From positions 1 through 64,000 of the forward strand of contig WTGI01000087.1 of NCBI GenBank assembly GCA_011523635.1: a DNA stretch of 64,000 nt. Direction: 5' to 3'. The DNA comes from Acidimicrobiia bacterium. Its GTDB lineage: Bacteria > Actinomycetota > Acidimicrobiia > Spongiisociales > Spongiisociaceae. Shown here piece after piece: positions 2,018 through 47,021 of this stretch (position 1 is its first letter; each line of letters starts with the position of its first letter). The position numbers were made by a program, and so were the translations under genes. The notes below the pieces were generated by a model. The model made no database searches. It was given only the letters and a program-made list of their open reading frames with translations, and had not been told where the DNA came from.

Positions 2018-3226
2018 TCACCTCATTCCGGTCTTGGCAGCGATCATCTCGACATCCTTGTCGCCGCGCCCGGAGAGGTTGATCAGGACCGTGCGGTCCC
2101 GCAGGGCATCGGCTTCCTTGGCCACCCAGGCCACCGCGTGGGCGGATTCGAGGGCGGGAATGATCCCCTCGGTGCGCGAGAGCAGGTCGACTCCCCCCAG
2201 GGCCTCCTCGTCGGTTATGGATACGTACCGGGCCAGACCCGCGTCGGCGAAGTAGGCGTGCTCGGGTCCCACTCCCGGATAGTCGAGGCCGGCCGAGATC
2301 GAGTGCGCCTCCAGCACCTGGCCCTCGTCGTCCTGGAGCATGTACGTCCGGGCGCCGTGGAGGATGCCGGGCGAACCGGCCCCTATCGAGGCGCCGTGCC
2401 GGCCGGTCTCGATACCGTGACCCGCCGCCTCCACACCGATCAGTTCTACCCCTTCACGACCGGCGAACGGGTAGAACATGCCGATGGCGTTGGATCCCCC
2501 GCCCACGCAGGCCACGACCACGTCGGGCATCGCCCCCGCTAGCTGGGCGATGCTCTCCTCACCGATCACCTTCTGGAACTCCCGGACGATCCACGGGAAG
2601 GGATGGGGGCCGACGACCGACCCGATTATGTAGTGCGTAGTCTCGACCGTGCGTACCCAGTCGCGCATGGCCTCGTTGACGGCGTCCTTCAGGGTGCCGG
2701 CCCCGGAGGTGACCGGCACCACGTCGGTCCCCAGCATGCGCATCCTCTGCACGTTGAGGGCCTGACGCTCGATGTCCTTCTCGCCCATGTAGACCAGGCA
2801 CTCCAGCCCGGCGTAGGCGGCGGCGGTGGCGGTGGCGACGCCGTGCTGGCCGGCCCCGGTCTCGGCGATCAGCCGCGACTTGCCCATGCGTTTGGTGAGG
2901 AGGGCCTGGCCAAGCGCGTTGTTGATCTTGTGGGCGCCGGTGTGGGCCAGGTCCTCCCGCTTGAGGAGGACGCGCACGCCGATCTCCTGCGACAGATGAT
3001 CGGCGGAGCGGAGCGGGGTGGGCCGGCCCGTGTAGCTGACCAGCAGGTCATGGAACGTGCTGACGAAGCCCGGGTCGATCCACGCCTCGGCGAACTCGGC
3101 GGCCAACTCCTCCAGGGCGGGCATAAGGGTCTCGGGAGCGAACATGCCCCCGTAATCGCCGAACCTGCCCCGCTCGTCCGGCCGGTCCAACCTGGGGCCC
3201 GGACCCGTCGCGGCGGTTACCGTCAT
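2018..3226 (-). CDS. trpB: Tryptophan synthase beta subunit
   Basis: PLP enzyme joining indole and serine to give tryptophan, partner of TrpA. 402 residues from the chosen start. The frame is open 64 codons further upstream, but the ATG at 3226 forms an ATGA overlap with the trpF stop and gives the family N-terminus ([19 protein letters not shown]). The PLP lysine lies in [14 protein letters not shown], the phosphate loop is [10 protein letters not shown], and the C-terminal LSGRGDKDV is present. This is the TrpB1 type that works with TrpA, not the stand-alone TrpB2. Confidence 0.97.
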
Positions 3227-38462: not shown

Positions 38463-40616
38463 TCAGAGCCCGAGGCCGATCACCACGTCACCCTCCCGGT
38501 CGGTGCGGCGCACCTCCATCCCGGCTCGCCGGAGTGTCGCCAGCAGCTTCTCGGAGGGATGTCCGAACCGGTTGGGTCCGACGCTGACCACCGCCACGGA
38601 GGCGCCCGTCCCCACCAGCCACTCCGGGTCGGAGGTTGCGGCGCCCTGGTGGGGGACCTTCAGCACGTCCACTCGGGGAGGGTCCAGATCGGCCTGGGAA
38701 ACACGTTCCAGATCCCCCGACAGCAGCACGGTCCCGCCACCGACCGTGGCCCGGATGGCGATCGACTGGTCGTTGAGCGAGGCATACCTGCGGGCCGGAC
38801 CCAGCACTTCGAGCCAGATGGAGCCGATCCGGTGCACACCGAGACTCGGGATGGTGACCCGGGTCACCTGCTCGGCGGCCCTGACCAGCCTCGTGAACTC
38901 ATCCGGCTGGCCGGGGAAGGGCGCGTACCACACCTGCCCGACGGGAAGAGCTCCGATGACGTCCGCCAGGCCACCGTAGTGATCATGATGGGCGTGAGAC
39001 AGGACCAGCAGGTCAACCGCTCTCACACCGAACCGGGCCAGCCCGGCCCTGACCTTGGCGCCGTCACTCCCCCCGTCCACCAGCACCGTCTCCCCGGCCT
39101 CGCCCAGCAGCAACAGCGCATCGCCCTGACCCACGTCGAGAGCCACGAAGGCCGGCCCGACCGGAGCGCCCGCCACCACGTGCGGAGCGGCGAAGATCGT
39201 CAACGAGCATGCCAGCAGGGATGCGGCCAGCACCGCCACCGGGCGGAACCGCCGGGCCAGGGCCACCAGCCCGCACCCGGCGAACAGCAGGGCGGCCGTC
39301 CATCCGATCTGCGGAAGGGTTGACGAGAGATCGGCGATTCCGAGGACCGCCCGAGCCGGCAGGGCTCCGGCCTCCACCAGCACATCCAGACCCGTGACGG
39401 CCCCGGCCCCTCCCAGGCCGGTTGCCGCCACCACGAGAGGAGCGGCCACCACGTTGGCGACCGGAGACCACAGCGGCAGCTGCCCGATCGCGAGCAGGAG
39501 GATCGGGGCCACCGCGAGCTGAGCGCCGCAGGCGGCTCCCAGCGACGTGGCGAGCCACCGAGGCCGAAGTTTGGGGAACCACCCGGTTCCGACCACCACC
39601 CCCGCTGTGGCGGCTACCGAGAGCTGGAACCCGAGGCTATGGGCCAGTTCCGGGGAGACCAGGAGGAGCAGGCCCACACCGACCGCTATCACCCGCCAGA
39701 TGTCCGGGCGCAGGCCGAAGGGTCGCGCCAGCAGGACCAGCCCCGCCATGGTGGCCGCCCGCACCACCGACGGGTCCGGCCCGATGAGGAGGACGAAGAA
39801 GGCCAGGCCGGCGAGGCCCAGGATGGCTCGGCGGATGGAATTCCAACCCAGCGGGCCGGCCACCAGGAACAGGGCGCCCAGGAACAGCGCCACATTGCTT
39901 CCGGATACGGCCACGAAGTGCGACAGCCCGGCGCGGCGCATAGCCTCCTCCTCCCACGGTCGCAGATGCGAGACATCCCCGAGCAGGAAGCCGGCCAGGA
40001 GCGCCCTCCCCCGGTCGGTACCCGGTCGGAGACGTTCGATGATGATGGAGCGAACCCGAGCGGCCTGTCCGGCCATCCATCCGACCCCTTCAGGGGCGGG
40101 GCGGGCGCGGGCCACCCGGCCCTCCCAGACCAAGGGGTCCCTGGCGGGATTCCCCGTAACCGGATCGGCCACGCGATGCATGGTCGTCTCGATCCACCAC
40201 CGGCTGTCCCGCGTCCAGCCGGCCACGCCACCCCGGACCCGGCCGGCCGGACCATTCCATGAGACCGGCCCTGACGGCCCGTCGATGGCCAGGACCCGCA
40301 CGAGAGCCCGATCCTGGCCCGAGCCACCCGACGCGTCCGCCAGGGCCTCGACCAGCAGCGCTACCTGGCCGGCGGGGAGCACGGCGCCCGCGGTCGCCTG
40401 GTGGCGAGCGTGCAGGAACAGAGCGCCGACAACCCCCAGAGCCACCAGGCTCGCCACCAGGGCGGCGCCCCATCTCTGCAGTAGAGCGGCTACTCCGGCG
40501 GCGGCCAGTGCCAGTACCGCGAGCCACGGGACCCGGGTCCCGGCCAAGACTCCGACCCATACCGCGCCGGCGCCGGCCAGGTACCACCGGGCTCGCGGGT
40601 CGGGCAGGCGGCCTAT
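38463..40616 (-). CDS. comEC: ComEC/Rec2 DNA-uptake channel
   Basis: Moves single-stranded DNA across the membrane during transformation. 717 residues if started at ATA 40616; a TTG at 40547 would start at residue 24, inside the first hydrophobic region. The ATA overlaps the comEA stop (ATAG) and has GAGGTG 5 nt before it; the extra residues (GRLPDPRARWYLAGAGAVWV) look like a normal ComEC N-terminus. Middle: many TM segments and the Competence-domain motif GLSHFVAVSGSNVALFLGAL. C-terminal (about 480-717): metallo-beta-lactamase-like domain with LSHAHHDHYGG. Confidence 0.9.
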   Translation of the reverse strand: MGRLPDPRARWYLAGAGAVWVGVLAGTRVPWLAVLALAAAGVAALLQRWGAALVASLVALGVVGALFLHARHQATAGAVLPAGQVALLVEALADASGGSGQDRALVRVLAIDGPSGPVSWNGPAGRVRGGVAGWTRDSRWWIETTMHRVADPVTGNPARDPLVWEGRVARARPAPEGVGWMAGQAARVRSIIIERLRPGTDRGRALLAGFLLGDVSHLRPWEEEAMRRAGLSHFVAVSGSNVALFLGALFLVAGPLGWNSIRRAILGLAGLAFFVLLIGPDPSVVRAATMAGLVLLARPFGLRPDIWRVIAVGVGLLLLVSPELAHSLGFQLSVAATAGVVVGTGWFPKLRPRWLATSLGAACGAQLAVAPILLLAIGQLPLWSPVANVVAAPLVVAATGLGGAGAVTGLDVLVEAGALPARAVLGIADLSSTLPQIGWTAALLFAGCGLVALARRFRPVAVLAASLLACSLTIFAAPHVVAGAPVGPAFVALDVGQGDALLLLGEAGETVLVDGGSDGAKVRAGLARFGVRAVDLLVLSHAHHDHYGGLADVIGALPVGQVWYAPFPGQPDEFTRLVRAAEQVTRVTIPSLGVHRIGSIWLEVLGPARRYASLNDQSIAIRATVGGGTVLLSGDLERVSQADLDPPRVDVLKVPHQGAATSDPEWLVGTGASVAVVSVGPNRFGHPSEKLLATLRRAGMEVRRTDREGDVVIGLGL

Positions 40617-41251
40617 CGACCCACCTCTACGTAGTCACGCATCCCTGCCAACCTGCCCTCGCCGACGCCCGGAACATCCAGCAGGTCCTCCATCGTCAAG
40701 AAGGGGCCGTGGGCCTCCCGGTGGGCGACGATGCGCAGCGCCAGCACCTCTCCCACCCCGGGAATCCTCGTAAGGGCCTCGTGATCCGCCCGGTTGAGAT
40801 CGACCGGATAGCCCGATCCCGCGCCGCCCGACGGTGGAACACCCGCGCCCGACCGGTCGCCGGCCCATGGGATGTCGAGGTGCATGCCGTCGGCGACCGG
40901 CGCAGCCAGGTTGACGAGGCGCAGCTCCGATCCGGGCAGGGCGCCACCCGCCCCGGCAATCGCATCGGCGACCCGGCTTCCCTCCGGCAACACCACCAAG
41001 CCCGGCGCAGCCACCGCACCCGAGACATGGACGGTCGCCGTAGCCGGGGCGGTCCCGACCGCGGACACGGGCGCGACCACCACCTCGGGGGACGGCCGGA
41101 ACTCGGGCGGGGGTACCTCGGGACGGTTCCAGAGGGCGAACCCGGTGACGACCGCCAGCGCGCCGCCCAGGACCAGGAGGGCGCCCCGGCGCGACACCGG
41201 CATGCCCGGCGCCCCGGAGGGCACCCCATGACCGGATGGCGTCTCGGTTAT
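40613..41251 (-). CDS. comEA: ComEA-type DNA-binding protein with SLBB domain
   Basis: DNA receptor for ComEC. About 212 residues. Order: short N-terminus, one TM (RRGALLVLGGALAVVTGFALW), an SLBB domain (VHVSGAVAAPGLVVLPEGSRVADAIAGAGG) and a C-terminal helix-hairpin-helix pair (VDLNRADHEALTRIPGVGEVLALRI, DLLDVPGVGEGRLAGM). The best ribosome binding site in the region, AAGGAGG, lies 5 nt before an in-frame ATA at 41251, which I take as the start; alternatives are GTG at 41266 and ATG at 41203. ATAG overlap with comEC. Confidence 0.88.
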   Translation of the reverse strand: MTETPSGHGVPSGAPGMPVSRRGALLVLGGALAVVTGFALWNRPEVPPPEFRPSPEVVVAPVSAVGTAPATATVHVSGAVAAPGLVVLPEGSRVADAIAGAGGALPGSELRLVNLAAPVADGMHLDIPWAGDRSGAGVPPSGGAGSGYPVDLNRADHEALTRIPGVGEVLALRIVAHREAHGPFLTMEDLLDVPGVGEGRLAGMRDYVEVGR

Positions 41252-46584: not shown

Positions 46585-46971
46585 TCAGTCCGGCGGGTCC
46601 GGCTCCCATAGGAGGCGCGGCGCATCACCCCACAGCCGGTCCAGGGCGTAGAAGTCCCTTGCCTCGGTCTGGAAGATGTGGACCACCAGGTCTCCGTAGT
46701 CCGCCAGCACCCACTCGCCGGTGTCCGTGCCTTCGGTGCGCAGCGGCTTGCGACCGCACCGGCCGAGCCGCCGATCGACTTCCTCGAGCATGGTGCGGAC
46801 CTGACGTTTGGAGGTTCCGGTGCCGATCACGAAGATGTCTACGATTCCCAGCAGATCCCCCATGTCGAGGATCACTATGTCGCTTCCCTGCTTGGCATCG
46901 ATGGCATCAGCCGCGATGGCGGCAAGTTCTGCCGACGCGATCTCGATGGCTGTTGCCTGCTGGTTCTCTAT
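46585..46971 (-). CDS. rsfS: Ribosomal silencing factor RsfS
   Basis: Binds L14 and blocks subunit joining in starvation. Core: SDIVILDMGDLLGIVDIFVIGTGTSKRQV and the C-terminal FYALDRLWGDAPRLL. The first canonical start (GTG 46875) would cut off the N-terminal helix that the family requires. The frame stays open 32 codons further to ATA at 46971, giving (M)ENQQATAIEIASAELAAIA, which lines up with the usual ~126-residue RsfS N-terminus (128 residues here). There is no ATG/GTG/TTG in that stretch and an in-frame TAG precedes it. The ATA overlaps the TAG of a 9-codon GTG frame (ATAG). Confidence 0.85.
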   Translation of the reverse strand: MENQQATAIEIASAELAAIAADAIDAKQGSDIVILDMGDLLGIVDIFVIGTGTSKRQVRTMLEEVDRRLGRCGRKPLRTEGTDTGEWVLADYGDLVVHIFQTEARDFYALDRLWGDAPRLLWEPDPPD

Positions 46972-47015
46972 GGCCGGCTATCCCGGACTGGCGACACCTC
47001 CTCGGGGCAACCCGG

Positions 47016-47021
47016 ATTATA
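47016..47021 (-). promoter_or_regulatory. TATAAT box at the end of element B2, upstream of rsfS
   Basis: A perfect -10 hexamer TATAAT on the minus strand, partly in the terminal repeat of the family B element. It would start an rsfS transcript with a leader of about 40 nt that contains a strong GAGGAGG. No good -35 was seen at 17 bp. Confidence 0.5.

Follow-up and report, generated by a model that had tools for sequence, protein, structure and literature searches.

A probable weak AUA start codon on rsfS in an acidimicrobiian bacterium and its possible control by IF3

The rsfS gene of the window (the whole stretch of 64,000 nucleotides analysed here) most likely starts at a weak and unusual codon, ATA at position 46971. 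Its relatives across the order swap weak codons (ATC, ATT, ATA, GTA, CTG) at this place and mostly avoid the canonical ones, a pattern suggestive of deliberate control of translation, as known for infC. Few bacterial genes are known to have non-canonical starts; infC, the best understood of these, is a feedback device. We consider it probable, with some reserve, that RsfS is made from AUA 46971, that selection keeps a weak start on rsfS across the order, and that IF3 most likely limits its translation. The comparison of genomes presented below supports the weak start well; that initiation takes place at ATA 46971 itself we infer from the start region and its conservation.

Results

The rsfS frame and its putative start

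The following features define the frame and its start.

46585..46971, minus strand: rsfS coding sequence, 128 codons plus stop, with ATA 46971 as putative start
46969..46971, minus strand: putative initiator codon ATA (ATA in 7/10 and ATC in 3/10 genomes of the genus)
46978..46980, minus strand: in-frame TAG, kept in 6 genomes of the genus and substituted in sisters; it excludes an upstream start
46873..46875, minus strand: GTG, the likely start for a gene caller and a conserved internal codon

After the TAG (46980-46978), the frame reads CCG GCC ATA GAG AAC CAG CAG GCA ACA GCC ATC and runs on to GAC ATA GTG (46875). Direct reading confirms the preliminary description in that no ATG, GTG or TTG occurs between this stop and GTG 46875. 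The product started at ATA scores 105.8 bits against PF02410 (cut-off 21.6, profile positions 3–98) and 104.7 bits against TIGR00090 (cut-off 56.9), and thus exceeds the curated cut-offs of the RsfS/Iojap family across the whole domain. The version started at GTG 46875 scores 90.0 and 88.8 bits, respectively, and loses profile positions 3–16 (14 positions). A start at this GTG would remove conserved RsfS sequence. The alignment of solved RsfS structures begins at residue 13–14; hence, the fold includes the N-terminal helix. In all ten genomes of the genus, the first 31 codons downstream of ATA are free of indels and stops, with a dN/dS of 0.43–0.49 versus 0.06–0.11 in the remainder of the gene. 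The earlier claim that this stretch encodes the N-terminal helix of RsfS is thus borne out, and ATA 46971, which gives 128 codons, is upheld as the best start. N-termini of RsfS are probably misannotated wherever gene callers accept only ATG, GTG and TTG.

Other ways of starting the frame were considered and rejected. TTG 47010 and GTG 46997 are closed by the TAG or out of frame, and ATC 46947, the sole other nearby in-frame AUH, is GTC in the relatives L013 and L011. Decoding of AUA as methionine finds no support in the alignment, where ATA pairs with ATC at internal isoleucine positions, or in the initiator tRNA, which looks normal.

Conservation of the start codon in the genus

We compared the genome of the window with nine other species of the genus (ten genomes). 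Both TAG and ATA are identical in five of these species (G001, G003, G005, G006, and G007). This excludes the 1-nt assembly indel that had been raised as a possible cause of the missing start, because the same sequence is found in six independent assemblies. The start column is also ATA in G008, where AGG replaces TAG, and it is ATC in G002, G004, and G009, where the stop is likewise replaced. Hence, an AUH codon occupies the same column in 10/10 genomes, and in six species hardly any of the surrounding positions from −45 to +45 varies. The gene shares with infC an AUH or similar start, conserved among relatives, in a region that lacks a canonical codon.

The leader of rsfS

The region upstream of ATA contains several elements.

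46978..46983, minus strand: proximal weak Shine-Dalgarno (SD)-like GGATAG (GGGA in CGGGATAG; GGAAGG in G008, G002, and G009)
46997..47003, minus strand: strong GAGGAGG (core GGAGG) 25 nt upstream of ATA, retained in 8/10 genomes of the genus
46968..46997, minus strand: mini-frame of nine codons, opened by GTG and closed by TAG; lost in G004 and G009, longer in G002
47016..47021, minus strand: −10-like TATAAT, TAT(A/G)(A/C)T in most sisters

The strong GAGGAGG was located at 47003-46997, at the distance from ATA previously given. Most of the order has a well-spaced strong SD before rsfS; the subclade of the window has only GGGA near ATA, within a weak adjoining sequence (GGGATAG), and its strong SD lies 25 nt away. 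The ATAG overlap of the preliminary description stands insofar as the TAG of the mini-frame (46970-46968) does overlap ATA, but the motif arises automatically from ATA GAG.

The −10-like TATAAT at 47021-47016, upstream of which no −35 element was found, would put the length of the leader at about 38 nt. Other families of the order have a stop close upstream of rsfS, and translation of rsfS could there be coupled to the upstream gene. Such coupling does not apply in the window, because nadD ends 175 nt upstream of rsfS. Folding of the rsfS leader was no better than that of shuffled sequences and gave no sign of an RNA element. Rfam matches above threshold were to tRNA only, with none in the leader. 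ARAGORN also reported a 94-nt tRNA-His at 2456-2549 (minus strand) within the trp gene region, which is probably a false positive.

Start codons of rsfS across the order

The sample of the order, which belongs to the Acidimicrobiia, comprises 90 distinct rsfS loci, 72 of them with a strong SD. The frames mostly open after the SD with ATC, ATT, ATA, CTG, or, in family f3, GTA. The SD was chosen blind to the codons: we located the strongest one and then read the in-frame codon 4–10 nt downstream. This codon was weak in 46/72 loci (25 ATC, 13 GTA, 5 ATT, 2 ATA, and 1 CTG) and canonical in 1/72. Control windows shifted by 6–19 nt at the same loci gave 3–18 weak and 4–16 canonical codons. Given a preference of 4 kcal for canonical codons, a start caller still chose a weak codon in 67/90 rsfS, 29/30 infC, and 4/27 nadD genes. 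The start of infC in the order is ATC in 28/30 genomes and that of nadD is canonical in 23/27 calls. For hpf, where automated calls ran into coding sequence and starts were read by eye, every case resolved in this way has ATG, GTG or TTG.

In family f3, GTA is the apparent rsfS start in 15/22 sampled genomes, 4–8 nt after a strong SD (L026, L345, L355, L358, L366, L371, L373, L377, L390, L391, L393, L398, L400, L403, and L404); L391 was labelled ATA by the automatic caller though it has GTA at the start position. GTA accounts for 9.6% of the valine codons in the f3 rsfS genes that carry it at this position. We know of no report of GUA as a conserved natural start codon. The 14 f3 rows of the RsfS tree, all with GTA at the start position, form a single branch (support 87), in a tree that has few columns and in which genomes within one clade are not independent. 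The same tree has one clear ATG clade, in family f2. Including this clade, a canonical rsfS start is present or possible in about one quarter of the genomes of the order. Strong SDs accompany weak codons, and the SDs of the ATG clade are weak; part of this pairing stems from the way the caller is constructed.

Among all loci compared, some with a strong SD or a clear N-terminus have no recognisable rsfS start (L052, L276, and L295 in f29; L302 in f16; L258, L263, L286, L288, and L299 in f28), and in two of them (L286 and L299) nadD has none either. A second, weak match to PF02410, perhaps an RsfS paralogue or fragment, occurs in G048, G266, and G275.

Start codons of rsfS beyond the order

Weak rsfS starts occur in other Actinomycetota: CTG in families f31 (6/6) and f52 (4/4), ATA in f36 (3/3), and ATC or ATT in f50. 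Across the phylum, a canonical codon is absent from the start region in 52/217 rsfS versus 5/109 nadD genes by a strict count. A few records from outside the phylum have ATC in a Nitrospira (CAGGAGGCTTGAG ATC) and in Planctomycetota, and ATA in one Chloroflexota. In other orders of Acidimicrobiia, in Actinomycetes, and in Bacillota, rsfS mostly starts with ATG, GTG or TTG. In E. coli the start is TTG (UUG), the only rsfS start codon that we found reported in the open-access literature; no open-access paper that we found reports the weak-start pattern.

ATA starts on comEA and comEC and start usage elsewhere

Comparison of about 40 frames of the window with those of sisters revealed mostly conserved canonical starts; rsfS, comEA, and comEC stood out. 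The two ATA cases that had been noticed near rsfS are real as well (comEA at 41251, comEC at 40616).

40614..40616, minus strand: ATA start of comEC, in an ATAG overlap with the stop of comEA, the same in 10 genomes of the genus and in G010
41249..41251, minus strand: ATA start of comEA, preceded by AAGGAGG; six sister species have ATG here

The comEC ATA directly follows an in-frame TAG in three genomes, and most other families compared have GTGA in place of ATAG; the ATAG coupling of comEC looks real. The start of comEA is ATA in three genomes and ATG, at the same place, in six sisters, and the AAGGAGG is kept. Since both genes also use ATA, this family tolerates the codon as a start beyond rsfS alone. 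As the tolerance of ATA in the window is not confined to rsfS, these two genes count against a reading that is specific to rsfS.

We also searched for relaxed start use at the scale of the genome and rejected it as an explanation. In 324 kb of G000 and in 400 kb of G030, the codons ATA, ATC and GTA were not clearly enriched downstream of strong SDs; since canonical codons were hardly enriched either, the test is a weak one. The lack of enrichment of weak codons in the f3 genome (400 kb) suggests that weak starts are not general. ATG, GTG and TTG were hardly enriched after AGGAGG, AAGGAG or GGAGGT (L123–L142 of G000 plus the window; L411–L430 of G030). Genes of these two genomes seem seldom to have a strong SD at the start, with the exception of infC and rsfS.

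Discussion

IF3 as a possible sensor of the weak start

IF3 rejects AUH, CUG and similar start codons. It would hold rsfS translation low by rejecting its weak start codon, and translation would rise when IF3 becomes scarce relative to free 30S subunits. The synthesis of RsfS, a 50S anti-association factor, would thereby be tied to IF3 and free 30S. This would be the autoregulatory circuit of infC, and it would serve to coordinate IF3 on the 30S with RsfS on the 50S, both of which keep the subunits apart. The starting points for this proposal are that infC bears such a codon and is repressed by IF3 (PMC13009471 and references there), that RsfS prevents the joining of 50S subunits (PMC7125091), and that binding to uL14 with a block of subunit joining is known for the RsfS of S. 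aureus and E. coli (PMC7125091, PMC13246957). The role of IF3 as sensor and the physiological purpose are what we infer from them. IF3 and RsfS, unlike IF1, increase jointly in a rimM mutant of E. coli; the authors put the rise of RsfS down to a stress response (PMC13246957). Shared start-codon control may instead lie behind the joint rise. If true, a simple circuit links the two anti-association factors and explains why both rise on failed 30S assembly. Besides the ATA starts of comEA and comEC, three observations weigh against the reading: the weak SD beside ATA in the subclade of the window, the actual or possible canonical starts in about one quarter of the genomes of the order, and the ATG, GTG or TTG starts of other Acidimicrobiia orders and of Actinomycetes. 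A wider version, in which rsfS is a second infC across several phyla, with IF3-rejected starts under selection (GUA in one family) and IF3 and RsfS co-regulated via the balance of free 30S and IF3, is an open contender to which we give somewhat less than an even chance.

The main rival is that the weak codon merely sets a low, constant level of RsfS, balanced by a strong SD, with IF3 giving no signal. We regard this as unlikely but worth serious consideration. It fits the company that weak codons keep with strong SDs, and that of ATG with weak ones, within the limits of the caller noted above, as well as the ATA starts of comEA and comEC. Yet there are many other ways to reach a low level, and five kinds of weak codon persist at rsfS, canonical codons are depleted at its SD-spaced position, and infC carries the same class of start. 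A constant level alone also fails to account for the fact that IF3 and RsfS increase together in the rimM mutant.

Two further readings place initiation elsewhere. The preliminary description proposed a start in the nine-codon mini-frame, followed by re-initiation at ATAG or by a frameshift into rsfS. The strong GAGGAGG nearby, the ATAG overlap in 7/10 genomes of the genus, and the plausible ATAG coupling of comEC speak for it. However, the mini-frame is missing in G004 and G009 and has no stop at the start of rsfS in G002, and the AUH start stays in all three, so that neither the overlapping upstream frame of a termination-reinitiation system nor the two-frame overlap of a programmed frameshift is conserved. 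In addition, its GTG (46997) overlaps the SD rather than coming after it, inspection by eye showed no slippery sequence, and, as stated, the RNA folds no better than shuffles. We therefore find this reading improbable. A truncated RsfS started at GTG 46875, as automatic annotation would give, uses the first canonical codon of the frame, which is conserved in the sisters compared, but it would delete profile positions 3–16 and the first helix common to solved RsfS, and the 31 codons upstream of it are under purifying selection without indels. This makes it the least credible of the alternatives, and we favour a weak start, probably sensed by IF3.

Comparison with known systems

The closest parallel is infC, whose non-canonical starts (AUU in E. 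coli, AUA in S. aureus) go with autoregulation by IF3 (PMC13009471). Like infC, rsfS encodes a subunit anti-association factor and has an AUH start that its relatives keep, and in the order of the window infC itself starts with ATC. Unlike infC, the product of rsfS acts on the 50S, its start codons also include GTA and CTG, and its control by IF3 would be a matter of analogy. Conserved non-canonical starts are also found on the staphylococcal genes cvfC1 (AUU) and ccpN (AUA), whose reporters give about 10–30% of AUG expression (PMC13009471). The weak start of rsfS is similarly conserved and usually accompanied by a strong SD, although the gene is another one and, in the subclade of the window, the SD beside the start is weak. 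Finally, the rsfS of E. coli is the same gene with a weak, though standard, start codon. There UUG is a canonical alternative, whereas the order of the window uses AUH, GUA or CUG.
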